A program made the translations under genes and the position numbers. Positions 2,563-33,441 of a DNA stretch of 35,563 bases are shown here, piece after piece. The DNA is from Candidatus Zixiibacteriota bacterium. GTDB lineage: Bacteria > JAAXHH01. Position 1 is the stretch's first letter, and every line of letters begins with the position of its first letter. The stretch lies in the NCBI GenBank assembly GCA_016867335.1, contig VGJU01000008.1, positions 1 to 35,563 of the forward strand. Reading direction: 5' to 3'. The notes under the pieces were generated by a model. That model saw nothing but the letters and a program-made list of their open reading frames with translations, was not told the origin of the DNA and made no database searches.

Positions 2563-4503
2563 CTATGGGGCTGTTGCGGTGGATTTACCCCAGAAGCGTA
2601 CCAGCAGGGTGAGCGCCGTCGCGCCCAAAAGAAGAGACACCCACGGATTGACACCGTATGCCGACGGCAGATCGCCGAGCAGAATACCCACCATCCCTAC
2701 CGTCATCGCGTATGGCATCTGGGTGCGCACATGGTCGATATGATCGGCTCCGCAAGCCATCGAAGACATGATGGTCGTGTCCGAAATGGGAGAGCAGTGA
2801 TCGCCCCATACCGCGCCGCTCAACACACCGGCGATGGTCCCTAAAAGCAGTGTATGCGCTTCGCCGCCCGTGATCCCTGCGGCCTGCGCAACCCCCACGC
2901 AAAGCGGAACCACTAGCGGCGTAACCAACGCCATCGTTCCCCACGACGTTCCGGTGGCAAAACTGACCAGACAGGCAATGACAAACGTCAGCGTCGGCAC
3001 AAGGTGCGGCGACAGAAACCCGGTGGCTACCGACACGATATACCGGGCCGTTTGCATCTCCTCACACGCCGCCACAAGCGCCCAGGCCAGCACTAAAATC
3101 ACCACAGCCAGAAACACCGACTGCGCCCCGGCCAGCCAAGCATTCAGACAGTCGGTAAGACGCATCTGGCGCAGACCGACGGTTATCACAAAAGCCAGCA
3201 GGGTGCCGATGAGGGAACCCCATAGCAAAGCCCTGCTTCCGTCCGCCTTGCCAAAAACCGTCCACAGGTCCGCCGTGGCCGTATCCGCTCCACCTGCGAC
3301 AAGCGCATCTCGCCCCGTAGCCCACATCCCCCAAAACGTCACCAGCATGACCGTCAGCAAGGGTATTGCCGCGTATATCCAGTGACGAACCTGCCCGTCT
3401 ACGGGTTTGAGTTGGCTGTCGGCATCTCCGCTCAACGGCGCGGCTCCGTCGGCGAGGAGCTTGCCTGTCGTCCGCGCTCTGCGCTCGGCGGGAAGCATGG
3501 GACCAAAGTCGCGTTGCATCACGGCGATCAGGACCACGAAAAACATCATCAAGAGTGGATAAAAACGGTAAGGGATCGTCTCCAAAAAAATCTGATAGGC
3601 GTTATAATCCAGTTGGACGCTTCTCAGGGCATCTCCGATCAACCCCACTTCGAAGCCTATCCAGCCGGAAATAAGCGCCACACTGGCAACCGGCGCGGAG
3701 GTGGCGTCCACGATAAACGAGAGTTTTTCGCGGGAGATACGCAACCGGTCCGTAATCGGGCGCATCGTGTTGCCGACGACCAGCGTGCTGACAAAGCCTT
3801 CGAAAAAGATGATCATGCCAAGCGCCCATGTCGCCAAATGGCCGGAGCGCGGGGTTTTTGCCCATCCCGTCACCACCTCGACCACACCGTAGACCGACCC
3901 GTTACGGGCGATGATGCCGATCAGCCCGCCAAGAACAAGGATGACAAGCAGTACCGAAGCATTCCAACTTGAGGAAAGACTTCCGAGGATCAGTTGATCG
4001 CCCCAGCGCAAAACAGCCAGAAACGGGTTGTATCCGGCGATAAACAGCGCGCCTAAAAGACCGCCTGCGGCGAGTGCCGCAAGCACCTGACGAAACGCCA
4101 CCGCCACCACGATGGTCAAGAGCGGGGGAAGAAGCGTCATCCATCCGGGCAGGACGCGCAACGACCGATCCACGATCTCCTCGCCGATCTGCGTTTGAAC
4201 CGTATACACGCCTGCCACCGAAACCAAAAGCGTTTCGGGAGGCGAAGGCTGTGCGCCGATCAGAAGCCCGGTGCGTGCCGTTGCTTCCACCTCCTGGCCT
4301 TTGTCGTCAAAAACCCGGAACGTATAAGGCGTCACATCCGTCGGTTGCTGCGCGGGCGTCTCGATCGATACGGTAAAAGGGATGTCGGACACCCCCATGC
4401 CGGGCAGGTGTACGATCGGCGAACCGGTCTGTGCGTACACGACGTCCGGAAGAACGAGCAACGCGGTGGCGATCCCGGCGGAGAGGACTGCGGATTTTAG
4501 AAT
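2563..4503 (-). CDS. NhaC-family Na+/H+ antiporter with N-terminal exported domain
   Basis: Polytopic inner-membrane sodium/proton antiporter of the NhaC (COG1757) type. After a leader of about 25 residues ending DVVYAQT there is an extracytoplasmic beta-rich segment of about 80 residues. Many hydrophobic helices follow from PGWMTLLPPLL onward, with family-like motifs GTSWGTMALVTPL and GDHCSPISDTTIMSS. No ATG or GTG gives a proper leader. The best fit is ATT at 4503, six bases after a perfect GGAGG, which yields a typical signal peptide (ILKSAVLSAGIATALLVL). TTG at 4461 is the fallback start but cuts the leader and has no ribosome site. The start and ribosome site lie inside the left copy of the 23-bp repeat that bounds the carotenoid block. 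Confidence 0.85.
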   Translation of the reverse strand: MLKSAVLSAGIATALLVLPDVVYAQTGSPIVHLPGMGVSDIPFTVSIETPAQQPTDVTPYTFRVFDDKGQEVEATARTGLLIGAQPSPPETLLVSVAGVYTVQTQIGEEIVDRSLRVLPGWMTLLPPLLTIVVAVAFRQVLAALAAGGLLGALFIAGYNPFLAVLRWGDQLILGSLSSSWNASVLLVILVLGGLIGIIARNGSVYGVVEVVTGWAKTPRSGHLATWALGMIIFFEGFVSTLVVGNTMRPITDRLRISREKLSFIVDATSAPVASVALISGWIGFEVGLIGDALRSVQLDYNAYQIFLETIPYRFYPLLMMFFVVLIAVMQRDFGPMLPAERRARTTGKLLADGAAPLSGDADSQLKPVDGQVRHWIYAAIPLLTVMLVTFWGMWATGRDALVAGGADTATADLWTVFGKADGSRALLWGSLIGTLLAFVITVGLRQMRLTDCLNAWLAGAQSVFLAVVILVLAWALVAACEEMQTARYIVSVATGFLSPHLVPTLTFVIACLVSFATGTSWGTMALVTPLVVPLCVGVAQAAGITGGEAHTLLLGTIAGVLSGAVWGDHCSPISDTTIMSSMACGADHIDHVRTQMPYAMTVGMVGILLGDLPSAYGVNPWVSLLLGATALTLLVRFWGKSTATAP

Positions 4504-4516
4504 GTGTATCCTCCGT
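4494..4516. repeat. 23-bp direct repeat, left copy
   Basis: Identical over 23 of 23 bases, in the same orientation, to 9232-9254. It covers the GGAGG ribosome site and the ATT start of the antiporter. Together the two copies bracket the carotenoid genes, as expected for an insertion that duplicated its target or a site-specific attachment core. Confidence 0.85.
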
Positions 4517-4636
4517 TTCTGGCTAACTATTGGCGATAGCGGTCATCCATAGTTTGGCTATGAGGACAGAAAGCCGGGTTGGAAGAGGGAAATTCGAAGA
4601 AACAGGTAGCAGCCCGTTAGCGTATACAAAAACATG

Positions 4637-6106
4637 TTACCCACGTTCGAACCTTTGAATCAGCTCGCAAGTGATCTGCGCTGAAAGAAGCACGGTGGGG
4701 GTCCCACCGCCAGGGTGCGAACTCCCACCGACGCGGTACAACCCGTCATACCGGGTGGACTTATTCGACGGACGTAGAAAGGCATTCCGCCAGCCATGTG
4801 AATGTGCGCCGTATATCGCCCCGCCAGGCATTGAGTAGGTCCCGGCAATTCGGCGTGGCGTCCAGACATCGCTCACGACGATGTCCGATTCGATATCCGG
4901 AAAGCCACTTCGGCGGAGACGCTCGAAAACACGGCACCGCGCCGTACCGATCTGCTCCTCATCCCACAGATCCCCATCATTGGCCGGGGCATTGGCCATG
5001 ATGAAAAGCGTTTCGCCTTCACCAAGCACGAGAGATCGGTCACTGCGGCTCGGGGTATTCACGTAAACCGTTGGGTCGTCAGGAAAACAACGTTCGTCGA
5101 ACAGTTGAGCGAACTCGCGCCGGTAATCTGCCGAAAAATACAGCGAGTGATGGGATAGTCCGGGGAGTTCCCGTCGGAGTCCCAACAGGAAAACGAGTCC
5201 GGACATGGAGCGATGGGTGGAAGGCATACCCTGCGCGTTGGATTCACCGAGCAGTTTGGGTCCCTCCGAAGCGTCGCCATTCATGACGACTACATCGCCA
5301 GGTAAACGATTGCCGTCGGCCAGATGTACGCCTTTCACTTTGCGGTTCTCGTGTTCAATACGCACAACCTGCGCCCGGGGGATCAGGTCTACACCCATTG
5401 TAGTGGCCAGCTCAAGTAACCCTTGAACGATCCGATACAGGCCACCACGCGCATACCAGCCGCCGAACGCGAACTCCAAATAGGGGATGATGGCGAGCGT
5501 CGCTGGCGCAGCGTATGGCGAGGAACCTACATAAGTCGGATAGCGGTCATAAAGCTGTTGCAGATAAGGACTCTGGAAATGGGCGGCGACCGTTTTGTGG
5601 TAATTACCCCAACCATAGCGAAGGGGCAGATGCCGTAACACACCGAGGTCCGTTGCACGAGGCCTATCAAGCGGACGGCGCTTGAGAAAGGTTTGCCGCG
5701 AAACGTCATAGAGACGCGCACCCAGTCGCAGAAACTTGAAGAAGCCTTCTACATCACGTGGCTCAATCATACGCACGGTTGGCAGCCACTCAGGCAACGA
5801 GGAGGTGTAGGTAAAGCGCACCCCATCGTCGTAAACATACTGGGCAAGCGGGTGCATCTGTATGAGTTCAACGTGATCCTGCAAACGGCTGCTGGCTGTC
5901 TCGAATAATTCTTGAAACACCCAGGGCATGGTAATCAGCGACGGTCCGGTGTCAAACTGAAAGCCTGCCTGGCTCCAGTAATTCATTTTGCCACCGAAAG
6001 TGTCACCTTGCTCGCAGACGGTAACCTGCCAACCGTTAACTGTCAGCCGTAAGGCCGTTGCCAACCCCCCCAGGCCCCCGCCAATGATCACCGCACGTTT
6101 CTTCAT
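4637..6106 (-). CDS. CrtI/CrtD-type carotenoid desaturase (paralogue 1)
   Basis: FAD-dependent phytoene-desaturase family protein (489 residues from ATG 6106). The dinucleotide-binding GGGLGGLATAL is at residues 9-19, followed by the family motif FDTGPSLITMPWVF and a C-terminal FAD-proximal segment GGSSHPGGGTPTVLLSAQ. The SSHPGGG form resembles CrtD, CrtN-b and isomerase-like members more than plain CrtI, so it may act on a later, already desaturated or hydroxylated carotenoid. This is inference. The start at 6106 is chosen over upstream in-frame codons because the flavin motif then begins at the usual place and GAGGCG precedes it. It is the last gene of the SRPBCC-crtB-crtI-desaturase operon, 81 bases after the previous gene. 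No lycopene cyclase is in the block. Confidence 0.88.
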   Translation of the reverse strand: MKKRAVIIGGGLGGLATALRLTVNGWQVTVCEQGDTFGGKMNYWSQAGFQFDTGPSLITMPWVFQELFETASSRLQDHVELIQMHPLAQYVYDDGVRFTYTSSLPEWLPTVRMIEPRDVEGFFKFLRLGARLYDVSRQTFLKRRPLDRPRATDLGVLRHLPLRYGWGNYHKTVAAHFQSPYLQQLYDRYPTYVGSSPYAAPATLAIIPYLEFAFGGWYARGGLYRIVQGLLELATTMGVDLIPRAQVVRIEHENRKVKGVHLADGNRLPGDVVVMNGDASEGPKLLGESNAQGMPSTHRSMSGLVFLLGLRRELPGLSHHSLYFSADYRREFAQLFDERCFPDDPTVYVNTPSRSDRSLVLGEGETLFIMANAPANDGDLWDEEQIGTARCRVFERLRRSGFPDIESDIVVSDVWTPRRIAGTYSMPGGAIYGAHSHGWRNAFLRPSNKSTRYDGLYRVGGSSHPGGGTPTVLLSAQITCELIQRFERG

Positions 6107-6187
6107 GTTGCGTTCGCCTCGCTCGAATGACCGCCAGTGTGACAGATTTAGCCGCCCGGCCCGCACCACGTGACGCCTCAATCACAG

Positions 6188-7753
6188 TCAGGTGCTGGGA
6201 AATGGCGAAGTGGGAGATTCTAATGGCGCGTTGTGCATCGGAGCAGGCACTTCAGTTCCAGGGTCTGAAACCCTTTGCCGAATCCTTTCTGCTGTCAGCT
6301 TGCCACTTAACACAACCATCGGCAGGCCAGTGCCAGGCGTGGTACTGGCCCCGGTATAATAAAGGCCATCCACCTCTCTCGCGTAGTTGCGTGGACGGAA
6401 AGGACCAACTTGGAACAAGGTGTGTGCAACGCCGAAGGCCGAGCCGTCATAGAGACCGAAGCGCTCTCGCCAATCATGCGGCGTATAAACTTCCTCTACC
6501 ACGATGCGTTCTGGCAAGATGACTATCCCATGCTGACGCAACCGCTCCAGTATTTGCATTCGGACGGCTTGAGTGGTGGCTTGCCAGTCCACGTCTTTCA
6601 GCTTGCTCAGGACTGGCGTCGGTGTCAGGATGAACAGCGTTGTGTCTCCTGGTGGTGCAAGGTCGGAGTCCGTTGCCGAGGGGACGCTCACATAGAAAGG
6701 TAGATCACCCGGAATCTGGTTGCGTTTGAACAGGTCACTGTACGTGGCCTGACTGTCTTTTGGCAGGAATATCGTGTGGTGCCCAAGGTTTTCAATGGCG
6801 CCGCGGATACCCCAGTAAAAGGTCAGCACACCAGGCGTCATGGGAAGACGGCGTGTTTGGCGGTGCTGTTGTTTCGAAAAGACCTCCTTCGCGATTAAAT
6901 CTGTGTTTGTTGTTGGTAAATCCACGTTGGAGACGACTATCGGCGCTTTGTGTGTGTGACCGTTGGATAGCTCCACACCGGTTATCCGCCTGTTCTCTAT
7001 GAGAACCCGTCTTACTCGCTGTCCCGTGTGAATCACAGCGCCAAGTTCGCAGGCAAGTTTTTCTATCCCGGTGACCAGACTGTAGATGCCACCTTTCGGC
7101 ATCCACAACCCGTAAGCCAGTTCACCATAAGGTAAAATTGAAAAAAGCCCCGGTAGCCTGTAGGGCGACCCACCAAGATACATGCCGTATGAACCGAGGG
7201 CTTCGAGCAAATAGGGACTGCTAAAGAATCGTCGCAATTCGCCGTCGAGTGATCGCCACAGGCTCAAGCGGCGCAATTCGGAGAGTGAAAGCGCTTTTAA
7301 CCATTCGATTGGATGATCAACATTTCGGTTGATTAGCCGACCGAAGGCCATCTGGTACTTGGCCTCCGCATCGCTCAAGAAGGCCAGGACAGAGGTCCTC
7401 GACCCGGGCGCGACCCTTTCGCACTCCTCCAGCAAGCGTTGCAGATTGCTCGACAGCGTGAATCGGGTTCCATCCCGCCATTGAAAACTCACGGAAGGAT
7501 CTACCGGCAGCAGCGTCACGTAGTCGGAAAGCTTACGACCGGCAGCCTCGAACAGTTGCTCAAAAACCCAGGGATAGTTAAGCAGTGATGGACCAGTGTC
7601 AAATCGAAAGCCTTCGCGCTCAATCAAATTGGCACGACCACCGACGCGCTCGTTAGCCTCATAGAGCGTTACGGCAAACCCGGCCAGTTGAAGGTGAATC
7701 GTCGCACTCAGACCCCCCAGCCCACCGCCAATAACGAATACGCTGTTATCCAC
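6188..7753 (-). CDS. crtI: Phytoene desaturase CrtI
   Basis: Flavoprotein that introduces double bases into phytoene, giving neurosporene or lycopene. It has 521 residues, normal for CrtI. GGGLGGLSATI lies at residues 9-19, FDTGPSLLNYPWVF follows near 52-65, and the C-terminus carries the CrtI signature YTGASTTPGTGLPMVVLSG. A proline-rich tail of about 25 residues follows the conserved core. The start codon is GTG at 7753, since the fold begins immediately there; no strong ribosome site is visible. It lies 34 bases after crtB and is presumably co-transcribed. A C30 (diapophytoene) substrate cannot be excluded from sequence alone. Confidence 0.92.
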   Translation of the reverse strand: MDNSVFVIGGGLGGLSATIHLQLAGFAVTLYEANERVGGRANLIEREGFRFDTGPSLLNYPWVFEQLFEAAGRKLSDYVTLLPVDPSVSFQWRDGTRFTLSSNLQRLLEECERVAPGSRTSVLAFLSDAEAKYQMAFGRLINRNVDHPIEWLKALSLSELRRLSLWRSLDGELRRFFSSPYLLEALGSYGMYLGGSPYRLPGLFSILPYGELAYGLWMPKGGIYSLVTGIEKLACELGAVIHTGQRVRRVLIENRRITGVELSNGHTHKAPIVVSNVDLPTTNTDLIAKEVFSKQQHRQTRRLPMTPGVLTFYWGIRGAIENLGHHTIFLPKDSQATYSDLFKRNQIPGDLPFYVSVPSATDSDLAPPGDTTLFILTPTPVLSKLKDVDWQATTQAVRMQILERLRQHGIVILPERIVVEEVYTPHDWRERFGLYDGSAFGVAHTLFQVGPFRPRNYAREVDGLYYTGASTTPGTGLPMVVLSGKLTAERIRQRVSDPGTEVPAPMHNAPLESPTSPFPST

Positions 7754-7787
7754 AAACCAGTCCCATGGGTTGAAATGGCCGCTCTAC

Positions 7788-8819
7788 CTACCAGGATAGA
7801 TACGCGAACGGCAGACGCCAGTACTTGCTCGTCGGTAGTCCTCTGAACTTGTCCCTAAAGGGTACACGCTCTCGATGCTGTATCCCAAATGGACTGGCTA
7901 TAATACGCGTGTTGAGCTGCCGATAGACCGTGATACAGGCCTGAACCGCTGTTCGACTGTCTGGTGCAAACGCATCGAGATCAGCCAGAGCCTGATCATA
8001 GTGATCTTCCGCCAAGTTGGCCATATGGCCGATCACACGGTGTATGGCGGCCTGTTGCCCTGGATTCATGGTGTCGAGTTCGTTGATCCCTTCCTCACGC
8101 AGAAGATCGAGCGGTAGATACAATCGCCCGCGCTTCTGATCCTCTGCCACATCACGGAGGAAATTCGTCAGTTGCAGGGCTGTCCCCAGATGGCGAGCAC
8201 TCGTCAGAGCTCGCTCAAAATCGTGACTTCCGTTGGAGCCGTAAACATAGGTTAAAAAATAGCCGACAACAACCGCGCTTCCATAGACATAATGGTCTAT
8301 CAGATCATCCATGGTGCTGAAAACGCGGGGTGTGACATCCTGACGCATCGCCATAAGAAACGAGCGATAGTGTTCCGACGGGATTCCGGCGTCCCGCACG
8401 ACTTGTGTAAACCCGGCCAGAAAGCAGGGGGCATGCGCCGCTAAGGCAGTTTTGATGGATCTGGCCCCAAGAGCAGTTTCATAGTCCTCAGCCCACCGGT
8501 CAAGGCGCGCTGTACGTTCCTCGGGTGTGAGCGCAAACGTGTCCACGATCTCATCCGGATACCGGACGGCGGCATAAATGGCTTCCACCCTGGCGCGCTT
8601 GTCGGGCGGCAGAAAACGGGTAACCATGAAAAAGCTGGTACTGTAAGTGCGTAGCGTGCGGCGCGCCTGTCGGACAATGATGTCCCATGCTGCAGTCTCG
8701 GATGGGGTTTGAACTGCGAGGTGGTGCGTCCGCTGTTCAAGCCGGTTCCACTCGGCATCGCTCCAGGCTTCACGAGGCCGTACGTTCAGAATGTTACTCA
8801 AAAGCGTTTGAATCATCAT
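7788..8819 (-). CDS. crtB: Phytoene synthase (trans-isoprenyl diphosphate synthase fold)
   Basis: Head-to-head prenyl synthase that condenses two C20 (or C15) diphosphates, the entry step to carotenoids. The first aspartate-rich motif is RYPDEIVD and the second is QLTNFLRDVAEDQKRGRLYLP, both intact. An in-frame ATG exists at 8924, but the extra 35 residues look non-homologous and overlap the SRPBCC remnant. ATG at 8819 or 8816 follows a GGAG, so a product of about 343 residues is preferred. It is followed by crtI and the second desaturase on the same strand. CrtB versus squalene or diapophytoene synthase is not settled by the motifs, though the two CrtI-type partners favour carotenoid synthesis. 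Confidence 0.9.
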   Translation of the reverse strand: MMIQTLLSNILNVRPREAWSDAEWNRLEQRTHHLAVQTPSETAAWDIIVRQARRTLRTYSTSFFMVTRFLPPDKRARVEAIYAAVRYPDEIVDTFALTPEERTARLDRWAEDYETALGARSIKTALAAHAPCFLAGFTQVVRDAGIPSEHYRSFLMAMRQDVTPRVFSTMDDLIDHYVYGSAVVVGYFLTYVYGSNGSHDFERALTSARHLGTALQLTNFLRDVAEDQKRGRLYLPLDLLREEGINELDTMNPGQQAAIHRVIGHMANLAEDHYDQALADLDAFAPDSRTAVQACITVYRQLNTRIIASPFGIQHRERVPFRDKFRGLPTSKYWRLPFAYLSW

Positions 8820-8913
8820 CAGCTCCAAGGCTGTCCCGGTAACCTTCCCTAAAACCTTTTCGCCCGTCCGATCTCCATCCGTACACACCGCATAGCGAAT
8901 GGTGAAACCAGAA

Positions 8914-9180
8914 TCAGCCCACATTCCCGTTATTGCAGCCTGTCTGTTTAGCCTCCTGCTCCACAGTTCCCAGCAGACGCGCCGTCATTGTTGAACGGTA
9001 GTCAAAATGAGATTTAGCCAACGGCGAATAAAAAAGGTGTGGGCGATCCGGCCGAGGACACCGTACGGAATCGCATACTCAACCACGTCCCGCATCAGAA
9101 CCCCGCCCCCAGCTCCTGGAAGGATAGCGCATTTTTATGTTCTTCTGATATGAAATATCGCTCTTTCACCCTGCGGGATC
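8914..9180 (-). pseudogene. Decayed SRPBCC (START-like) ligand-binding protein
   Basis: Reading the minus strand from about 9180 to the TGA at 8914 recovers an SRPBCC-like C-terminus only by switching frame. One frame gives YFISEEHKNALSFQELGAG, then stops. The next gives MRDVVEYAIPYGVLGRIAH and FFIRRWLNLI. The third gives FDYRSTMTARLLGTVEQEA and runs to the stop. The VEY-P-G-LGR and FDYR signatures are typical of the family's C-terminal helix. The shifts fall in a GGGGGCGGGG run near 9101-9110 and a TTTT run near 9003-9006, so slippage mutations or homopolymer sequencing errors fit equally. The N-terminal half is not recognisable. SRPBCC genes often sit beside carotenoid or other lipid genes. 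Confidence 0.6.
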
Positions 9181-9231
9181 TACGGCTAATTCAGCGAAAA
9201 ATCTGTCTCATTAAATATAGGCACACAGGGA

Positions 9232-9254
9232 ATTTTAGAATGTGTATCCTCCGT
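9232..9254. repeat. 23-bp direct repeat, right copy
   Basis: Identical to 4494-4516. On the minus strand it still carries a GGAGG followed six bases later by ATT CTA AAA, but the frame then runs into a TGA after 16 codons. It therefore looks like the severed 5' end of the antiporter gene left on the ctaA side of the inserted carotenoid block. Confidence 0.85.
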
Positions 9255-9337
9255 CTCGGGGGTGCGTGGCCCCTTGATGTCGCCGCAGATGTAGCGGGGG
9301 ACCTTCTTCTCGATCTTCGGCTTCCCGTGTCTCGCCC

Positions 9338-10285
9338 TTACGGAGCCGTCGTCCTTGCCGGTTGCGCCCGAACGACCAGTATGGCGTATATCTGGATGCA
9401 AATCAACACCGAGGCCCCGGTCAGATGCAACACTTGCGCCGGTGGCGGCAGTCCGGCATACGCCAGCACGACGCCCAGCCCGATCTGAACGACGACACCG
9501 CCCAGCAGGATACGGCTAAGCTGTGATATCGGCCCGGTGATACGGCGTCGGTACATCTCGCGGAACAGCCATCCGGCCGCGATCAGTACCACCCAGGACG
9601 ACGAACGGTGGATATAATCGATAGGGCCTACCTTCGCCAGCCATTCGGAGCGTGGCAGTCCACCGGGATCCTTGATAAACGGGTCGATGCCCTCGCGTAC
9701 CTGCGTGCCGAGCACTGTCTGAATAACGGTAAGCGCAAAAAGCACCATGCAGAGCCAGTATGCTGTTTTTTTTGCTTCCGGCGGGAGACCGGCATCCGGC
9801 GCAGGGTACGCCATAAACACCGCATACAGCAAGACGCCGATCAGTACGATGGCCAGCAACATGTGCGCCGTTACCACCACCGGATGTAACTCGGAGCGTA
9901 CCACCTGCCCGCCCAGCCAGCCCTGAAAGGCCACCAGCACGACGCTGAATACCGCACACCAAAAAATACGCGGATGAACACGTCGATGCGGAAACGCAGC
10001 GATGGCCGTCCCCAGCACAAGAAAGCCGATCAACACGCCGACCATCCGGTTTAGGTACTCGGTCCACATTTTGACCGGGTTAAACTCCCGGACGTCGTAT
10101 CCTTTTGCCTCTACATAGGCCATATCCACTTCGGCAAGACTGGACGGCGGAAACCAGCACCCCCAGCATTTGGGCCAGTCCGGACACCCAAGTCCCGCAC
10201 CCGTAACCCGTACGAGACCGCCGATGGAGATAAGAACGACCGTGGCGAGCACCGTGATCAGCGCAATTTTTCGAAAAGCGTTCAT
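9338..10285 (-). CDS. ctaA: Heme A synthase (CtaA/COX15)
   Basis: Integral membrane enzyme that oxidises the heme O methyl to heme A for aa3-type cytochrome oxidases. It has 315 residues and about eight hydrophobic helices. GAGLGCPDWPKCWG near the N-terminus is the family's conserved cysteine-containing loop. The LHPVVVTAH, YIHRSSSW and VLHLTGAS segments hold heme-ligand-type histidines. The ExxH motif of the first helical bundle reads EYLN, so one classical histidine is replaced by asparagine. ATG at 10285 is chosen over GTG at 10321 because the first helix starts right after it. No oxidase subunit lies nearby. Its stop is 84 bases from the repeat, suggesting it once directly preceded the antiporter gene. 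Confidence 0.93.
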   Translation of the reverse strand: MNAFRKIALITVLATVVLISIGGLVRVTGAGLGCPDWPKCWGCWFPPSSLAEVDMAYVEAKGYDVREFNPVKMWTEYLNRMVGVLIGFLVLGTAIAAFPHRRVHPRIFWCAVFSVVLVAFQGWLGGQVVRSELHPVVVTAHMLLAIVLIGVLLYAVFMAYPAPDAGLPPEAKKTAYWLCMVLFALTVIQTVLGTQVREGIDPFIKDPGGLPRSEWLAKVGPIDYIHRSSSWVVLIAAGWLFREMYRRRITGPISQLSRILLGGVVVQIGLGVVLAYAGLPPPAQVLHLTGASVLICIQIYAILVVRAQPARTTAP

Positions 10286-10325
10286 GGAAGACCTGTGTAT
10301 GGGGTTGCTCGAACGTCCCACGCCG

Positions 10326-11072
10326 TTATGCGGATGGGAAATTCAACGGCGTTTTACCCCCGACACAGGGCGGACGCAGCAAGTCGCGCTGAAGATCGGT
10401 GGTCGCCTTTGCCCTAAGCGCTTCCAAATGGTCCAGACTGGCCCACGTGGAATGTCCGGGAGAATACTTGTACAATAGCGCACGCCGCCGGTTTTTTTTT
10501 GACATCCATGTTGTGGTCCCGTGTATGAGCGCCTCGGTAAAAATGAGCATATCTCCCGCGCGAAACGACGGATTGACCACAAGATGCGAATCGACCGGCG
10601 GAAGAAAATATCGGTTGGCCTTATGGCTTCCCGGCACGCAAATAAAGCCTCCGTCACCCGGATGGATGTCTTCGAGCGCATAGATGGCGACGATAAGACC
10701 GTTGTGCATCTTTCCGTCAAACCACTGATACTGGTGCTCGCCATGATCGGTACGCGGACCGCCGTGCAGGTTGGGCCGAGCAAGACCGCGCTCCACGGTT
10801 CCGGTATCCATTTGGAGACCGTAGGCGTGGTCGTAGCGCATCCAATCACCGATCATCTGACGCATGATGGAAAGTGTGCGCGGATGTGCCATCAATTCGA
10901 GAAAACAGGGATCCAAATCTATAAACCCAAAGCTAAAAGTGTCCTCCTTACCCAGCCGTTTTAGGTCTTCGTCGATGATCGCATTCATCCTGCGGACATC
11001 GTCCGGCGAGATAAGATCGCGATAGACGATCACACCGTTCAGGTCAAACTCGAAAAGTTCCGCCTCGGTCAT
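10326..11072 (-). CDS. Phytanoyl-CoA dioxygenase (PhyH) family protein 1
   Basis: Probable Fe(II)/2-oxoglutarate-dependent oxygenase of the PhyH family (248 residues). The core GDGGFICVPGSHKAN and the distal histidine region ALIHGTTTW plus RRRALLYKYSPGH are clear. The usual HxD metal pair is not: the region instead reads LHGGPRTDHGEHQYQW, so the first metal ligands are uncertain. ATG 11072 follows AGGAGG by six bases, a strong ribosome site. It is the last gene of the leftward catabolic arm, 37 bases after the second PhyH gene and 40 before ctaA. The substrate is unknown; bacterial members hydroxylate or demethylate diverse small molecules. Confidence 0.85.
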   Translation of the reverse strand: MTEAELFEFDLNGVIVYRDLISPDDVRRMNAIIDEDLKRLGKEDTFSFGFIDLDPCFLELMAHPRTLSIMRQMIGDWMRYDHAYGLQMDTGTVERGLARPNLHGGPRTDHGEHQYQWFDGKMHNGLIVAIYALEDIHPGDGGFICVPGSHKANRYFLPPVDSHLVVNPSFRAGDMLIFTEALIHGTTTWMSKKNRRRALLYKYSPGHSTWASLDHLEALRAKATTDLQRDLLRPPCVGGKTPLNFPSA

Positions 11073-11109
11073 ACCCTGCCTCCTGAGGATGCACTGTTTC
11101 CCAGCCTGT

Positions 11110-12009
11110 CTACCGGATGCCCCCATTTTCTTTGAGCTTTAGTTGCTCCTCATACCACGTTTTGACGGGAAGGTCTTCCTCGCGTGGACGCCAGTGCCGC
11201 GAAATCGGATGCACGGGATCGTCACCCATGTAATTCTTCGCGCCGCCGTTCAACTCGCCGAGCAACTGGAGTTGAACGGGCGTACACCGAGCCAGCAATT
11301 CAGGCGATTGATGCAGATAGTCCGCGGGGCGTATCCAGCGATGGTGATACCCGTAATACAGACATTTTCGGGTTTTTACGGACAGGTTGGGCGTCAGACA
11401 GTGCCACAGCGCGGTACGCCACAACATCGCCGTTCCGGGTTTGACGTTGACCTCGAAAATCCGCGCCGGATCGATCGGATGTTCGGGGTCGTGGATACGT
11501 TTGGGAGACATAAGATGACTGCCCCGCACCACGCATATCGCACCCGCATTATGCTCCGAAAGGTCGGTAAGATAGTACCCTACTTTGACCTCTACAAAAG
11601 GTACGGCTCCGTTGGTGACCGGGTATCCAAAATCGGGGCCGTCCGAATGCCATGGGAAAAAGCTGTCCTTTGCGCCGAGTGGCTGATTGGCAAACTCCGC
11701 CGGACAGGGCGGTCTCACATCCATGTGCGAGGTGCGTATCTGGATGTTGGGACCGATCGCATCTACCACCATGGGAAACAGTACGGGGTGATCGATCAGA
11801 CGGAACAGTTCCTCGTGATGCGCCAGCGCGTTGCGCACCTGAAACGCCGCATCCGGTGCGATGTTCTGCATCTTCCGGTATCGGGTGTCCAAGTCGTTTA
11901 CCACTCCGACCAGCCGGTCTACCGTGTCCGGTGTCAGGGCGTTTTCGACAAGGACAAAGCCGTCTTCGTCAAACTGTCGCTGCTGGGATTCCGTCAGGAC
12001 AAGAGACAT
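11110..12009 (-). CDS. Phytanoyl-CoA dioxygenase (PhyH) family protein 2
   Basis: Fe(II)/2-oxoglutarate oxygenase family protein of 299 residues. The iron triad is visible: H121 and D123 in PWHSDGPDFG, and H203 in LWHCLTPNLS. R214 in SVKTRKC is a candidate 2-oxoglutarate carboxylate anchor. VVRGSHLM is the conserved turn before the distal motif. The ATG at 12009 is preceded by AGGGG. It starts 9 bases after the enolase-superfamily gene stop, so the two are tightly linked in one operon. The four PhyH proteins here are clearly divergent from one another, which suggests separate steps or substrates rather than recent duplication. Confidence 0.88.
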   Translation of the reverse strand: MSLVLTESQQRQFDEDGFVLVENALTPDTVDRLVGVVNDLDTRYRKMQNIAPDAAFQVRNALAHHEELFRLIDHPVLFPMVVDAIGPNIQIRTSHMDVRPPCPAEFANQPLGAKDSFFPWHSDGPDFGYPVTNGAVPFVEVKVGYYLTDLSEHNAGAICVVRGSHLMSPKRIHDPEHPIDPARIFEVNVKPGTAMLWRTALWHCLTPNLSVKTRKCLYYGYHHRWIRPADYLHQSPELLARCTPVQLQLLGELNGGAKNYMGDDPVHPISRHWRPREEDLPVKTWYEEQLKLKENGGIR

Positions 12010-12018
12010 AAAAAACCC

Positions 12019-13281
12019 CTAACTCCACAGCCGGTCCCATGGGCGGTCCTCGTTCCATTCGTCCGTCGTTTCGAAGAAACCGGGTACAGCCGGGTTGATA
12101 TGCGCCCGGACCGCCTCTTCGTTGAGGTCGATACCCAGCCCTGGGGCTTCGGGTACGTCGATAAAACCTCGCTGACAAATCGGGTTGGGCAGTCCGGTGA
12201 CGATATCGTTCCACCAGGATGCGTCCACATAGTGGTGTTCGAGACACATAAAATTTTCCGTAGCGGCGGCGCAATGTACGCTGGCCATCTGTGCTACGGG
12301 CATGGCGGCCATGTGCATCGCCATGGCGATGCCGTGTTCCTGTGCGAGATCGCCGATGCGTTTGGTTTCGAGAATACCGCCGGAAGTGGCAAGATCGGGG
12401 TGGCAGACCGACAACGCCTTTTTCTCGAACAGGTCGATAAACCCTTCTTTGAGATAGATGTCCTCACCCGTACAGATCGGGGTGTCGCACGAGTTTTTGA
12501 GACGCACGTACTGATCGGTAAATTGCCAGGGAATCATGTCTTCGAGCCAGGCAAGATTGTATCGGTCCAGCGCTTTGGCCAGCCGTATGCAGTCTTCGAC
12601 ACCGATATGTCCGAAATGATCTGCCGCAAGGGGAATCTCGTAGCCTACGATACTGCGGACCGTGCCCACGTAGTCGGCCAGCATGGAGATCCCCTTGTCC
12701 GTCAGCCGAATCCCGGTAAACGGGTGCATCACCGAATAGGTGTCGAGCATGCCGGACGGGGCGGCAAGTGTCCCCGGTTCGCGCTGTACCAAGTCGATGC
12801 CTACGTCCATTTTGAGAAAAGTAAAACCTTCGTCCATACGCGCCTTTAGTCGTCGGCCCATTTCGTGCGGATCGGGTGAACTGGTCGTATCGCAGTAAAT
12901 ACGGATTTTGTCGCGGAATTTGCCCCCGGCAAGTTGATAGGCGGGGACCCCGTATGCCTTGCCGGCCAAATCCATGAGCGCCATTTCGACGCCGCAGACA
13001 CCGCCGCCCTGCCGCGCATGGTGACCAAACTGTTTGATCTTGCGAAACAGTTTGTCCACGTTGCAGGGGTTTTCACCAAGGAGACGGCTTTTGAGCATGA
13101 GCGCATACCGCTTGCTCGCGCCGTCCCTTACTTCGCCCAGACCGTAGATGTCCTGATTGGTGTACAGTTTGATGAGGTTGCAATTTCCGATGGTTACCGT
13201 CCGCATGTCGGTAATTTTGAGCTCGCTCGGTCTTGATGCGGTACGGAGGCCTGCTTCTGTGGAATGACTGGCTGTGGACAT
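12019..13281 (-). CDS. Mandelate racemase/muconate lactonizing (enolase) superfamily enzyme
   Basis: TIM-barrel enzyme that abstracts a proton alpha to a carboxylate; many members are sugar-acid dehydratases. It has 420 residues, normal for the family. The three Mg2+ ligands lie at the ends of successive strands: aspartate in LAADHFGH, glutamate in AWLEDMIPW and glutamate in ICTGEDIYL. FLKMDVG holds the second-strand lysine, and MAMHMAAMP supplies a histidine near the seventh strand. ATG 13281 follows GGGAG by five bases; a GTG six bases upstream is less likely. It sits between two PhyH genes, which fits breakdown of a hydroxy or sugar acid. The exact reaction is not predictable from the visible residues. 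Confidence 0.9.
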   Translation of the reverse strand: MSTASHSTEAGLRTASRPSELKITDMRTVTIGNCNLIKLYTNQDIYGLGEVRDGASKRYALMLKSRLLGENPCNVDKLFRKIKQFGHHARQGGGVCGVEMALMDLAGKAYGVPAYQLAGGKFRDKIRIYCDTTSSPDPHEMGRRLKARMDEGFTFLKMDVGIDLVQREPGTLAAPSGMLDTYSVMHPFTGIRLTDKGISMLADYVGTVRSIVGYEIPLAADHFGHIGVEDCIRLAKALDRYNLAWLEDMIPWQFTDQYVRLKNSCDTPICTGEDIYLKEGFIDLFEKKALSVCHPDLATSGGILETKRIGDLAQEHGIAMAMHMAAMPVAQMASVHCAAATENFMCLEHHYVDASWWNDIVTGLPNPICQRGFIDVPEAPGLGIDLNEEAVRAHINPAVPGFFETTDEWNEDRPWDRLWS

Positions 13282-13353
13282 GAACACTCCCTGAGGGTTT
13301 CTGGGTTGGTTCCCCGTTTAATCGGCGGTTGTATTGGGGGGTTGAACCTGCCC

Positions 13354-14199
13354 CTACGATCCGGGGGACCATGAGGCGGGTGGGGTGATCGGTCCGTGAT
13401 CCCACACGGTCGGGAAAAAATGCCCCTTCAATTCCTCGCCGGGTTTTACGGTCACCCGGTGCTCCATTATATGCGTGCGGTTGGGTTCGTACCGCGTCCA
13501 TCCCGGCATGTAGTGGACCGCAATGGCGGGTCTTCCTTTTTGGGAGGGATTGGTCGGGCTGCCGTGCCACGTCAGACAGTGATGAAACATGCACTCTCCC
13601 TTTTTGACTTCGCACGGCACGATTTCTATTTTTTCCCCTGTCGGGACAAGCGACAGATCGGGGGTAGGAGAAAAATCGTCCGGATTCGTGCCGATGGTTC
13701 CGCCTTTGTGTGGCCCCCACAGATGGCTACGGGCCACCATGCGCATACATCCGTTTTCCGTCGTGGCGTCGTCAAGCGCCACCCATGCGCTGATCAGGTC
13801 CGCCGGTTGGATGATGGGCCAGTACGGGTGATCCTGATGCCAGTCGGTCGTCCCGCCCCGGACCGGGGGCTTGTACTGGACCTGATCGTGCCACACGCGA
13901 AGCACGTCCGTGCCGATCAACTGTGTCGCCATCTCGCAGATTTGCGGGTGATACAGATGCGCGCGGAACATATCGTCAGCTTGCCATGTGTTCACGATTT
14001 GGATCACCACAGGCTTGTCGCGATCGTCTTCTCCACCACGCATATTGCGCACCGCTTCGGCCTTTCCGCGCGACGTACCCGCGATGACCTGCATCATGCG
14101 TTCAAGGAGCCGGTCGGCCTCCTCGTCGTTGTATACGCGGCCTACGTTCAAAAAACCCCGCTCTTTGAACTTTTCGATCTGTGTCTCGCTTAACCGCAT
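13354..14199 (-). CDS. Phytanoyl-CoA dioxygenase (PhyH) family protein 3
   Basis: Fe(II)/2-oxoglutarate oxygenase family protein of 281 residues. H121 and D123 in TDWHQDHPYW form the first part of the iron triad. H212 in LTWHGSPTNPS is the distal ligand, followed by KGRPAIAVHYMPGW. ATG 14199 is preferred to ATG 14205 because GGGAG lies at a workable distance only from the former. It is 18 bases from the beta-propeller gene's stop and 72 before the enolase-superfamily gene, on the same strand. Confidence 0.9.
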   Translation of the reverse strand: MRLSETQIEKFKERGFLNVGRVYNDEEADRLLERMMQVIAGTSRGKAEAVRNMRGGEDDRDKPVVIQIVNTWQADDMFRAHLYHPQICEMATQLIGTDVLRVWHDQVQYKPPVRGGTTDWHQDHPYWPIIQPADLISAWVALDDATTENGCMRMVARSHLWGPHKGGTIGTNPDDFSPTPDLSLVPTGEKIEIVPCEVKKGECMFHHCLTWHGSPTNPSQKGRPAIAVHYMPGWTRYEPNRTHIMEHRVTVKPGEELKGHFFPTVWDHGPITPPASWSPGS

Positions 14200-14217
14200 A
14201 ATCATTCTCCCTTGTGC

Positions 14218-16015: not shown

Positions 16016-16825
16016 ATGACCGCCGCGTCCGGAACAGGCACGTTCGAAACGTTTGATGAAAACCGAACCGGGGAAATTGTTTCGGCTTTTCACCGCGACG
16101 GCTTTGTCCACATCCCGAACGTGCTTTCCGCCAAAGAGGTGGAGGCGCTCAAAAAGGCGGCGGACAGCGTATTTGCAGATCCACGCTGGAACGAAAACGA
16201 CAATCTGTACGGATTTGTAGCCGTGCGGTTGTTCGAAGCGGACCCGATTTTCGAATCCATGCTTACCCGCGAACCGATTATCGGACTGGTCGAACATATC
16301 CTCGGCAAAGACTGTCATCTAGTTGCCGAAAATCTGGTACGCAACGAACCCGGCAAAGCGATCGATTCGTTTCACGTAGACGATCTGTTGGTGTTTCCGC
16401 TTCCTCCGGAGATTCCGCGTTTCGATCCCCGCATCACCATGCCCGTTCATATCTTGACGGTTCAACTTCCGCTCACCGATATCCCCTCGATCGAGTACGG
16501 TCCAAGCGAATACGTGCCGGGCAGCCATTATTCAGGCAGAGAGCCAAATGATAAGCACCACCCGGTTTTTGAGGACACCCCCCCAGTTCCGGTCTTTTGC
16601 CGCGCCGGAGACATCTATCTGCACAACGGCCAGTGTTGGCATCGTGGTGCCCCCAACGGGTCGGACCGGACTCGGTATCTCTTTCAACTGGCCTATTCGC
16701 GGCGATGGGTTTCTCAGCGTTTTTATCCATTTGTCAACTACCGCTTGCCGGCGGAAGTGTATCACCGGGCGGACGAACGGCGTCGGCGGGTGCTGGGGTT
16801 TCATCCCAAAGGTGCGTACGGATAA
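16016..16825 (+). CDS. Phytanoyl-CoA dioxygenase (PhyH) family protein 4
   Basis: Fe(II)/2-oxoglutarate oxygenase family protein of 269 residues and the first gene of the rightward arm. H120 and D122 in DSFHVDDLLVF and H209 in QCWHRGAPNGSDRTRY complete the iron triad; the arginines after it could hold 2-oxoglutarate. The ATG at 16016 follows AAAGGAAGG by three or four bases, a strong though close ribosome site. The next gene, a Gfo/Idh/MocA dehydrogenase, begins 38 bases downstream. The oxygenase product could be the substrate of that dehydrogenase, but this is inference from order only. Confidence 0.9.
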   Translation: MTAASGTGTFETFDENRTGEIVSAFHRDGFVHIPNVLSAKEVEALKKAADSVFADPRWNENDNLYGFVAVRLFEADPIFESMLTREPIIGLVEHILGKDCHLVAENLVRNEPGKAIDSFHVDDLLVFPLPPEIPRFDPRITMPVHILTVQLPLTDIPSIEYGPSEYVPGSHYSGREPNDKHHPVFEDTPPVPVFCRAGDIYLHNGQCWHRGAPNGSDRTRYLFQLAYSRRWVSQRFYPFVNYRLPAEVYHRADERRRRVLGFHPKGAYG

Positions 16826-20836: not shown

Positions 20837-21508
20837 CTATTCCTTCGGGTCGAACAGCCGGTTTTTTTTCGATAGGTTGACGGCATTTTCAATTTCGGGT
20901 TTTACGATGTCTTCAAAACACTCCGGGCATATACCGTGGCTAAACTCGGCGTCCGAGTTTTCGGAGATGTAGCACTCCATCGGACGCCATGCGGATTTGT
21001 CGTCGCGAATTTTTTTGCAGTAGCTGCAAATCGGCAGAATCCCTTGTAGACGTTTTACATGTTTCAAAGCTTCCTCAAGCTCGGCGACGCGTTGGGTCAG
21101 TTCGTCTTGCAACCGAACGATCCGTTCTCCTGCACGGAGACGCGCGGCAAGTTCCTGCAAATCAGGTGGCTTGGTCAGATAGTCGTCCGCACCGGCGTTT
21201 AGCCCTTCCGCAATATCCATTTTTGTATCTCGCGTCGTCAGCAGAAGCACGTAAAGCGCCCTAAGCGCCGGTGTGCGGCGGATGTGTCTGCACAGTTCCA
21301 CCCCATCCTTTTCGGGCATCATCCAGTCCAATACCGCCATTCGGGGGGCATCTTCCCGACAGAGTACCTCCCATGCGGCGGAACCGTCTCGCGCGATGAC
21401 CACATCGAATCCAAGTTTTTCGAGTTGGAACTCAAGAAAAAGACAGGTGACGGGATCGTCTTCGGCAATCAGCACACGCACCGGCGTTTCGTCCTTCTCT
21501 ACGCTCAT
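20837..21508 (-). CDS. Response regulator with C-terminal zinc-binding domain
   Basis: A 223-residue protein. Residues 8-125 form a receiver domain with acidic pair ED/D at 16-18, phospho-acceptor D61 in VLDWMMPEKDG, threonines at 91-92 and K113 in LTKPP. A coiled coil of about 30 residues follows. The end is a small cysteine domain: C161 and C164 in ICSYCKKIRDD, then H191, C194 and C197 in FSHGICPECF. This tail is found on many bacterial receiver proteins, but its function is not established. There is no DNA-binding domain, so output is probably by protein contact. The start ATG overlaps the zinc-ribbon gene stop (ATGA). No partner kinase is adjacent. Confidence 0.88.
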   Translation of the reverse strand: MSVEKDETPVRVLIAEDDPVTCLFLEFQLEKLGFDVVIARDGSAAWEVLCREDAPRMAVLDWMMPEKDGVELCRHIRRTPALRALYVLLLTTRDTKMDIAEGLNAGADDYLTKPPDLQELAARLRAGERIVRLQDELTQRVAELEEALKHVKRLQGILPICSYCKKIRDDKSAWRPMECYISENSDAEFSHGICPECFEDIVKPEIENAVNLSKKNRLFDPKE

Positions 21509-29585: not shown

Positions 29586-29600
29586 TGGCACGAATGTTGC
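29586..29600 (+). promoter_or_regulatory. Sigma-54 (RpoN) promoter
   Basis: TGGCACG at 29586-29592, four bases, then TTGC at 29597-29600. The invariant -24 GG (29587-29588) and -12 GC (29599-29600) are exactly ten bases apart, matching the RpoN consensus. It sits 73 bases before the usp start, which has AGGAGG at 29662-29667. An NtrC-type activator gene lies in the same cluster. Confidence 0.85.
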
Positions 29601-29673
29601 GATATCATAGCATTGAAGAGGCAGGCCAAACGAGTAGACGCTACAACGATCCTACCCTAGCAGGAGGTCCGTC

Positions 29674-30129
29674 ATGGTTGCCATCAAAAAGATTCTGTTC
29701 CCGACCGATTTTTCCCTGTTTGCCGAACATGCCCTCAAGTATGCGGTGGCCATGGCACGAGAGTTTGACGCCACGCTCTATATGCTATACGTGGAAGAAC
29801 TACTTCCTTATGTGCCCGGCGATCCGGACCGTAAGTTTCCCGATCCGGAAACAGGCTAGCATCGAGCCATGGAGGAGATGAAAACCTCGATGTCGTCCGA
29901 AACCGAAAAAACCATCGAGTTAAAACGGTTTGTGGCGCGTGGGATACCCGCCGAGGAGATCGTCGATTTTGCTCGAAACAACGAGATCGATCTGATCGTC
30001 ATGTCCACGCATGGCAGGACCGGGTTGAAGCATGTGCTGATGGGCAGTACCACCGAAAAAGTGGTACGCAAAGCGCCCTGCCCCGTACTCAGCATTCGCC
30101 ACCCGGAACACGAGTTTGTTATGCCGTAA
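29674..30129 (+). pseudogene. Universal stress protein (UspA family), interrupted by in-frame TAG
   Basis: The frame gives a full-length single-domain UspA protein (151 codons) except for a TAG at codon 62 (29857-29859). Before it, ILFPTDFSLFAEHALKYA is the classic N-terminal strand and helix. After it, ARNNEIDLIVMSTHGRTG and the ATP-binding GRTGLKHVLMGSTTEKV, then PCPVLSI, are intact. A CAG to TAG change would explain the stop. ATG 29869 downstream lacks a ribosome site, so re-initiation is doubtful. It lies directly behind the sigma-54 promoter with an excellent AGGAGG and is followed 19 bases later by the sensor kinase. TAG ends intact neighbours such as mgtE, so recoding is unlikely. Confidence 0.8.
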
Positions 30130-30148
30130 TACGGACAGGAAACACCGT

Positions 30149-31669
30149 ATGTCTGGGGAAATGGAAAAACTGATTGCCGATTTGCTCGAAACCTCGCCCG
30201 ACGCCTTGGTGGGGGTTGACGAAGAAGGATATATCGTATTTGTAAACACCCAGGCGGAAGGCATGTTTGGATACGAGCGTGCGGAGATAATGGGACAGTC
30301 TGTCGAGATGTTGATTCCGGATGCTATACGCGAGCGGCACAGGGAGCATCGCGCCGAATACCGAAAAGCCTTTCGAAGCCGACCTATGGGCATCGGTATG
30401 GAGTTGACCGCGCTTCGCAGGAACGGTCACACGTTTCCCGTCGAGGTAAGTCTCGGTCGGAGCGACTTGCCTGCCGGTCCTGTGACCATCAGCGTCATCC
30501 GCGATATTACCGAGCGAAAAAATCTCGAACTCCAGTTGCGGGAATACGCCGGAGAATTGGAGCGGCTGGTGGAAGCGCGTACAGCACAGTTGCGCAACGA
30601 GCGGGATTTTACCCATGAGGTGATCGAACACGCCAACAGCCTTGTGCTTACCTTGTCGGCGGACGGACTCGTGCGATTGTTCAACCGGGACTGTGAAGAG
30701 ACATGGGGATACAGGGCGGAGGAGGTGGTTGGAAGTGAGTGGGTGTCTACCTTGTTGCCTGAGGACGCCAGACCCCAGGTCGATGCGTTGATGGAGGCCG
30801 TGCGCCACCACCGAACACCCGAAACATGAGCATGTTCGATACGGACCAAAGAAGGGGGGATACGCCCCGTTGTGTGGCGTATCGGCGTTGTTCGTGACGA
30901 ACGACAGCGATTGTCGAGACTGGTAGCTATCGGACGCGACGTGACCGAGGAGCAGCGTCTTCAGGAACGGGTCATCCAGTCGGAGCGGCTGGCGATGGTC
31001 GGACGCATGGCGGCGCAGGTGGCGCATGAAATCCGAAATCCACTCAGCGCGATCGGTTTGAATATAGAACTCCTTACCGATTTAATCGACGAATTACCCG
31101 AAGCGGACAGAGACGAAGCCAAAGAACTCATTCGCATTACCATGTCAGGTATTGAGCGGCTCAACGGTGTAATCGGGGACTATCTGCGTTTTGCCCGTAT
31201 GCCGGTAAAACAACTTCAGGAAGAGGCGGTCAACGACATGATGGAGGAGTTGATCCATCTTATCCGCTCGGAAATGCATCCTGCCCATGTCGATCTATCC
31301 GTAAGGCTCGACGGCAATCTTCCGTCGGTTAAAGCCGACCGGATGTTGATCGGTCAGCAGGTACTCAACTGCGTGCGCAATGCGCTGGAAGCTATGCCGG
31401 ATGGCGGTGTGCTTACCCTTGCCACCGATATCGAAGAAAACGAGGTACGCATCTCGATCTCGGATACCGGCGACGGCATCTCGCCGGAACATGTCGAGCG
31501 GGTTTTTGATCCGTTTTTCAGCACCAAGGAAAACGGTACGGGGTTGGGACTTCCCTATGTTCAGCAGATCATGCAGGAACATGGCGGGCGACTCGACCTT
31601 AACAGCGTGCCCGGTGCGGGAACGACCGTCACCCTTCTATTTCCGGCTTCGACACCGGAAGTATCCTGA
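30149..31669 (+). pseudogene. PAS-domain sensor histidine kinase, interrupted by in-frame TGA
   Basis: One frame of 506 sense codons broken by TGA at codon 227 (30827-30829). Domains in order: PAS 1 (SPDALVGVDEEGYIVFVN), a coiled-coil linker (LEARTAQLRNERDF-type), PAS 2 (SLVLTLSADGLVRLFN), then, past the stop, the end of PAS 2 (IRPVVWRIGVVRDE). The HisKA motif AAQVAHEIRNPLSAIG follows, then the ATPase boxes CVRNALEAM, DTGDGISP and GTGLGLPYVQQIM. There is no transmembrane segment, so it would be cytosolic. CGA to TGA fits the context. The second half has only a poor GTG restart at 30872. ATG 30149 has AGGA eight bases upstream. It is probably co-transcribed with usp and is the likely partner of the convergent NtrC-type regulator. 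Confidence 0.85.
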
Positions 31670-31792
31670 ACGTGACATACACGCTCAGGGCGCCAGATGC
31701 CAGAATGCCGAGTGGTTTGCGACAGGAGACCGGAAGACGAGTGGCGTTTTGTCAAATTGCCGTTTTAATCGGGCACATGGAAAGACAAAATG

Positions 31793-33163
31793 TCAAATGC
31801 TTTCGTGATCGGCGGTTTTATCCAGCTTGCGGTATATGGTACGGCTGGCGATTCCCAATAGTCCCGCCGCCACATTCTTGTCCCCACCTACCTGTTCGAG
31901 CGTGGCACGGATGACTTGCAGTTCGATTTCTTCGAGCGGCGTTCCGATAGGAATCGTCAAATGTCTGGTCGCCGTCGCGCCTGCGTTGAGATGTGCAGGC
32001 AGGTCGTCCACTCCGATTTCGGCGGCGGTGGTCAGCACGACCGCGCGCTCGATCACGTTTTCGAGTTCCCTTACGTTGCCGTGCCAGCGATAATTGGTCA
32101 AAAGATGCATGGCCACTGGTGAAATGTGTTCTATCTTCTTTTCGTTTTTACGGCCGAAGGTACGCAGAAAATGATGGGCCAGCAACGGTATATCGTCGGT
32201 CCGCTCGCGCAGGGGTGGCAGGGTCAGCGAGATGACGTTGAGCCGGTAATAAAGGTCTTCTCGGAAATTCCCCGTCTTTATCGCCTCTTCGAGATTCCGG
32301 TTGGTCGCGGCGATCAGACGCACATCGACCTGTATGGTTTTCGTACTCCCCAGACGCTCGAACTGACCTTCTTGGAGCACACGTAACAGTTTGACTTGCA
32401 TGGACGGACTCATCTCGCTTACCTCGTCCAGCATGAGCGTACCGCCGTGCGCGGCCTCGAACCGCCCGATGCGGCGCGCAGTAGCGCCGGTAAAGGCGCC
32501 TTTTTCATAGCCGAAAAGTTTGGCTTCGAGCAGATTTTCAGGTAGCGCGGCGCAGTTGACTTTGAGAAACGGCTGGTCTTTGCGCTGGCTACACTGATGA
32601 AGTGCGTCGGCGATGCGTTCCTTTCCGGTGCCGCTCTCGCCCTGAATAAGCACGGTGGCGGTGCTGGGTGCTACCTGTCGGACGATTTCCATCAGCCGTT
32701 TCATGGCAGAGCCGGAGCCGATAACATGACGCGGCTGTTCCAGCGCGTCGAGCCGTTACTTGAGCCGCTGGTTTTCCATGCTCAGCCCGCGACGCTCCAG
32801 TGCCCTTGCCACCACCTGCTCGATCAGCGCCTTGCGCGGCGGTTTGGAGATAAAATCGTATGCACCGGTTTTGATGGCATCTACGGCTTCTTCCACACTG
32901 CCGTAGCCGGTCAGGATAACCACCTCGATATCGGGTCGATTGGCTTTGGTAGCCTTGAGAAGTTCCAGACCGTCCATGCGCGGCATACGAAGGTCCGCCA
33001 ACAACTCGTCTACGGAGCGTGTCTGGATGATGTCCAACGCTTCCCGTCCATCTGCCGCAAATAAGGTCTGAAGCCCTTGGCGTGTCAATATGCGCGCCAG
33101 CGCGTCCCGAATTTCAGGCTCGTCGTCGGCAATGAGTATAGTGGAATCTTCGGAAGACGACAT
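31793..33163 (-). pseudogene. NtrC-family sigma-54 response regulator, interrupted by in-frame TAA
   Basis: The frame from ATG 33163 (AGGAG eight bases upstream) encodes receiver, AAA+ and Fis-type HTH domains, but TAA at codon 136 (32756-32758) splits receiver from AAA+. Receiver: acidic pair DDE at 13-15, D57 in LADLRMP, and K in FISKPP. AAA+: Walker A GESGTGKE, sigma-54 contact loop GAFTGA, Walker B LDEVSE and arginine-finger region FREDLYYRLN. The HTH is KNVAAGLLGIASRTIYRKL. CAA to TAA would explain the stop, within the linker LK-stop-RLDALEQ. The residue before LFGYEKGAFTGA is K where E is usual. It is convergent with the kinase gene and would activate RpoN promoters such as the one before usp. 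Confidence 0.85.
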
Positions 33164-33299: not shown

Positions 33300-33441
33300 C
33301 GCCTTGCCTTGTGTCACCAAGTGCTCTATTTTGATCGTCAAAACGGATTAGAATGACCGTATGCCCGATTGTTTTTGCAATACCCGTGCCAATCCGGTAC
33401 AAATCGGTTTCTTTTGTCGAGACAACATAAAAAATACTGAC

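Follow-up and report, generated by a model that had tools for sequence, protein, structure and literature searches.

Three neighbouring signalling genes in the window (the whole stretch of DNA analysed here, 35 563 nucleotides) are each interrupted by one in-frame stop, and we consider them very probably real, recent pseudogenes within a continuing, function-biased loss of two-component and sigma-54 signalling. The genes encode a universal stress protein (Usp), a PAS histidine kinase and an NtrC-type regulator. The genome is of the Latescibacterota; among named records, those nearest to the kinase come from Candidatus Latescibacterota.

Contig C8 of a fragmented metagenome assembly (G000, genus g1; 4.38 Mb in 431 contigs, with 5.26% contamination) makes up the window, and the assembly was compared with its relatives through family searches and sampled stretches. 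G011 and G012 represent other families of the same order, G002 the same family but genus g3, and twelve further genomes a third genus, g2; no same-genus (g1) genome was returned among the relatives searched.

Three interrupted signalling genes

Usp gene. Read through, usp (29674..30129, + strand) has 151 codons, and its product, 68% identical to an intact Usp in G012, matches the Pfam Usp family at residues 4–142 (1.7e-34). A TAG at codon 62 (29857..29859, +), where the nearest homologue, a G012 Usp, has Glu (GAG), cuts the domain, and the G-x2-G-x9-G-S/T motif of the ATP-binding type sits downstream, so that no complete domain with the motif is left. The Usp product is dead, as a mid-domain cut of this kind is beyond rescue by downstream re-initiation.

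Kinase gene. The two-PAS sensor histidine kinase (30149..31669, +) reads through for 506 codons, with two Pfam PAS domains, HisKA and HATPase_c, and over almost its entire length shares 55% identity with a G011 kinase that is intact. A TGA at codon 227 (30827..30829, +), within the second PAS domain, parts the sensor from the kinase, leaving no single frame in which the H-box and HATPase_c motifs follow a sensor PAS domain. At this position the nearest homologue, a G011 kinase, has Trp (TGG), the least certain of the three homologue residues because the alignment near the stop is weak, with few identities on either side.

Regulator gene. On the opposite strand lies an NtrC-type response regulator and sigma-54 activator (31793..33163, − strand; 456 codons read through) with Response_reg, Sigma54_activat, lid and HTH_8 domains. 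Its translation holds the receiver, the sigma-54 AAA+ domain, with GESGTGKE and GAFTGA, and the Fis-type HTH expected of the type, although they do not stand in one uninterrupted frame: a TAA at codon 136 (32756..32758, −) interrupts the linker that joins receiver and AAA+ domain, where the nearest homologues, in G011 and G012, have Glu (GAA, GAG). With intact orthologues the regulator shares about 72–73% identity (G011) and 72% (G012), and in a tree the three proteins form one clade with 100/100 support, which fits an order-wide gene.

TAG, TGA and TAA thus stand exactly where the earlier note on this DNA had placed them, and its description of the three genes as full-length family members apart from one stop each agrees with the Pfam results; a second lesion is absent from all three, and the key catalytic motifs are kept in all three read-through proteins. 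The surroundings are largely in order: among 25 other ORFs of the window scanned against Pfam, 22 have a family match in an unbroken frame (enzyme, transport or other) and three have no Pfam match. An intact response regulator of 223 aa is encoded at 20840-21508, so some signalling genes here survive.

Mutational origin. The earlier note had traced all three stops to C-to-T changes on the coding strand (from CAG, CGA and CAA). The nearest homologues carry GAG, TGG and GAA/GAG instead (Glu, Trp, Glu), codons from which G-to-T, G-to-A and G-to-T would explain the stops no less easily than C-to-T, and a coding-strand bias is further at odds with the lesions elsewhere in G000, which include frame changes and all three stop codons. 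Judging from the codons of relatives, C-to-T may still account for the regulator stop, a position where more distant regulators have Gln, but CAG/CGA/CAA would be just one of several possible origins overall.

Functional splitting. The kinase and regulator, the Usp being excluded, could conceivably function now as split genes through downstream re-initiation, giving a PAS protein and a sensorless kinase, and a free receiver and a free AAA+/HTH activator. Predicted frames exist for both downstream products: one from a GTG (30872..31669, +; 265 aa), just after a purine-rich stretch, that keeps HisKA and HATPase_c and lacks the PAS domains, and one from an ATG (31793..32704, −; 303 aa) that keeps AAA+ and HTH; the linker position of the regulator stop also suits such a split. 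The AAA+ part, however, has its first in-frame start within the domain, at the cost of the first seven profile positions, the kinase stop falls within a PAS domain rather than between domains, and the only domain of the Usp is cut through its middle. Many other kinases of the genome have stops and frame changes inside their catalytic domains, which makes loss the better reading. Functional halves, already ranked low in the earlier note, therefore seem to us very unlikely.

Signalling lesions across the genome

Stops in domains. When stops were read through, 6 of the 45 HATPase_c domains of G000 had one inside (on C116, C133, C41, C74, C40 and C54; that on C116 is only ~13 codons short of the domain end). 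As controls we took a limited set of three non-signalling families, with internal stops in 0 of 67 ABC_tran, 2 of 136 PhyH and 1 of 72 GFO_IDH_MocA domains. The difference between 6/45 kinase and 3/275 control domains (Fisher's exact p=0.0003) means that lesions are enriched in kinases over other gene classes of the same genome. PhyH (phytanoyl-CoA dioxygenase) is itself an expanded family here: four of its 136 domain matches are in the window (10326-14205, 16016-16825), and it is present in only one of 14 well-known control genomes.

Lesion survey. Intact kinases and activators of other genomes served as tblastn queries in a survey that was neither blind nor identical in every relative, whose denominators are approximate, and in which some frame changes scored as lesions could be separate genes; Fisher values calculated from its hand-made counts are accordingly rough. 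Further kinases proved to be frame-shifted, namely those on C44, C21 (two) and C6, and the C40 kinase to have a stop together with a frame change, so that kinases with stops and/or frame changes are now known on C40, C54, C74, C133, C41, C44, C21 (two), C6 and C116. Besides the window regulator, 4 of ~11 sigma-54 activators are broken, those on C155 and C193 by a stop and a frame change, and those on C53 and C91 by a frame change, with truncation; apparently intact ones lie on C190, C48, C25, C3, C43, C40 and C227. One core kinase/regulator pair, that on C190, is intact, and the tree places orthologues of its regulator in G002, G004 and G006. G000 retains dozens of kinases and around twelve sigma-54 activators, roughly a third of them broken by stops or frame changes, while hardly any of the transporters and enzymes are; relaxed selection is the presumable cause.

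Other scans. A codon-usage scan for stops within coding sequence was abandoned because its signal was too weak and GC-rich antisense frames dominated. When every ORF was compared by tblastn, unfiltered, with the sampled stretches, shadow ORFs swamped the result; restricting the queries to non-overlapping ORFs yielded few true stops in the random stretches, though at too small a coverage.

Sequence error. The stops might have been introduced by sequencing or assembly error or by a damaged template. An assembly in 431 contigs with 5.26% contamination leaves room for this, as do the frame changes among the lesions elsewhere, and the preserved catalytic motifs of the three proteins would also fit errors at the stop sites. 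Our main argument against artefact is that random sequence error is blind to function, whereas the stops favour kinase domains over controls. The nearest homologues, moreover, lend no support to a uniform C-to-T damage signature, and ORF coverage in the sampled G000 stretches (~0.91-0.93) is close to the values of relatives. We regard error as unlikely. The degraded or mixed template proposed in the earlier note is accordingly disfavoured, since lesions cluster in signalling genes and are nearly absent from the ABC, PhyH and GFO/IDH families.

Read-through. Translation across the stops, by a suppressor tRNA, selenocysteine or recoding, would account for the retention of all the catalytic motifs, which recent decay also explains. 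Against it stand the use of three different stop codons and the near absence of internal stops from non-signalling families, and no suppressor tRNA was found in ~767 kb of sampled stretches (less than a fifth of the genome). The earlier note had likewise placed tolerated read-through among the less likely explanations, and we give it hardly any credence.

Pseudogenisation is then the reading we keep. The recent loss of a sigma-54 stress circuit that the earlier note suggested is supported, as part of a wider loss across the genome, while of its other two suggestions biased C-to-T mutation is unsupported and a poor template is disfavoured.

A putative sigma-54 circuit and its promoter-like sites

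Promoter-like sites. Two sites of the sigma-54 (−24/−12) type flank the trio. The first, TGGCACGAATGTTGCG (29586..29601, +), precedes the start codon of usp by 73 nt and has one mismatch to TGGCACGN4TTGCW; the second, TGGCACGGGTATTGCA (33376..33391, −), is a perfect match aimed at the regulator gene from a distance of ~210 nt. Sites with up to one mismatch number 16 in 803 kb of sampled G000 sequence, and ~0.004 correctly oriented sites would be expected by chance in the two gaps, where two were observed. A window-wide tally at up to two mismatches showed no excess over chance, and our case for the promoters is therefore built on position, orientation and the stricter threshold of up to one mismatch.

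Circuit. The sigma factor gene rpoN is intact (Sigma54_DBD in a 527-aa frame on C47), and its loss is thereby ruled out as the cause of the decay. With rpoN present and sites upstream of usp and of the regulator gene (at 29586 and 33391), the trio qualifies on sequence alone as part of a sigma-54 circuit. Similar contexts recur: in G012 a like site, TGGCATGCCGATTGCA, precedes a Usp pair; on C28 of G000 a perfect site is just upstream of the likely start of an intact Usp paralogue; and in G011 the orthologous regulator is likewise convergent with a PAS kinase, with a two-domain Usp nearby. From these Usp contexts, the two sites and the intact RpoN we infer a kinase–regulator–sigma-54–Usp circuit, in which the kinase-regulator partnership, the signal and the regulon are all putative.

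In its intact state, the two-PAS kinase would have phosphorylated the NtrC-type regulator, which together with RpoN may have activated its own gene and the usp-kinase operon at the flanking pair of −24/−12 promoters. One nonsense mutation per gene would then have inactivated the circuit recently.

Another perfect sigma-54 promoter-like site was noticed on C91 of G000 (L182, complement of 2760), ~430 nt upstream of another broken activator.

Probable loss among relatives, and known systems

Relatives. Internal stops were found in 0/37 HATPase_c matches of G011, 2/43 of G012 and 4/32 of G002. The sigma-54 activators of G011 are long open frames with no stop. In G002 (g3), the stretches around kinases and activators (loci L198-L215) contain truncated fragments, frame changes and stops, so that both gene classes show a similar decay there; a kinase on C256, for example, is split over three frames. 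Genomes of g2 have 11-17 HATPase_c matches each (twelve genomes), compared with 45 in G000 and 37-43 in G011 and G012, and three clear sigma-54 activators each in the two genomes examined. Searches for the trio in other genomes of the family gave best matches of at most ~45% identity, and in most of them no Usp match turned up. The simplest history has the trio in the ancestor of the order, absent from g2 and g3, and struck by nonsense mutations in g1.

We would put at about even the chances of a broader reading, that a Latescibacterota family is at several stages of stripping two-component and sigma-54 sensing while RpoN, promoters and a large metabolic repertoire are kept. The genus g2 would be furthest along, with g1 and g3 half-way; regulation would go before metabolism, and sigma-54 usp promoters would be left without an activator.

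With genera of one family at apparently different stages, it could be read directly in what order sensor, regulator, target and sigma factor are lost, which makes the family a test case for the loss of sensing in bacteria. For annotation, tallying kinases by their domain matches in metagenome-assembled genomes of this kind exaggerates their capacity to sense.

Latescibacterota that live with sponges have been described (PMC12993501), and a host-associated lifestyle would fit the decay pattern. The terms two-component, histidine kinase and pseudogene do not occur in that study, and our literature search found no paper describing such decay.

Known systems. The window kinase and regulator have their best NCBIfam scores with AtoS/AtoC, with ZraS/ZraR among the next, but these scores are far below the curated cut-offs. 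Two PAS domains in the kinase and a Usp in the partner operon also set the window genes apart. A further counterpart is a convergent Latescibacterota HK/NtrC pair in G011 (JACQVL010000164.1, L033), where the regulator with about 72–73% identity to that of the window adjoins a PAS kinase and has a Usp gene nearby. There, however, all genes are intact, the adjoining kinase is not the same as that of the window (36% identity), and the Usp has two domains. By eye, L033 at 7718-10933 resembles L158 (G000 C28) at 4405-8656, both with a TonB-like protein, a two-domain Usp and a formate-THF ligase; after that block comes the HK/NtrC pair in G011, and in G000 the Usp with the perfect sigma-54 site.

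At the scale of the genome, the nearest parallels are the Sodalis-like SOPE (PMC3914690) and Mycobacterium leprae (PMC2753549), which like G000 have many pseudogenes with premature stops and frame shifts in a genome that is still large. Both belong to a comparison class of young host-associated bacteria, a lifestyle that G000 may or may not share. The genomes differ in the reach of the decay: in G000 the ORF coverage is still ~0.9, and the decay, instead of affecting half of all genes, is centred on those of two-component and sigma-54 systems. The mechanism, pseudogenisation, is ordinary, a known process rather than a new system, in a setting that is unusually clear, function-biased and lineage-wide.
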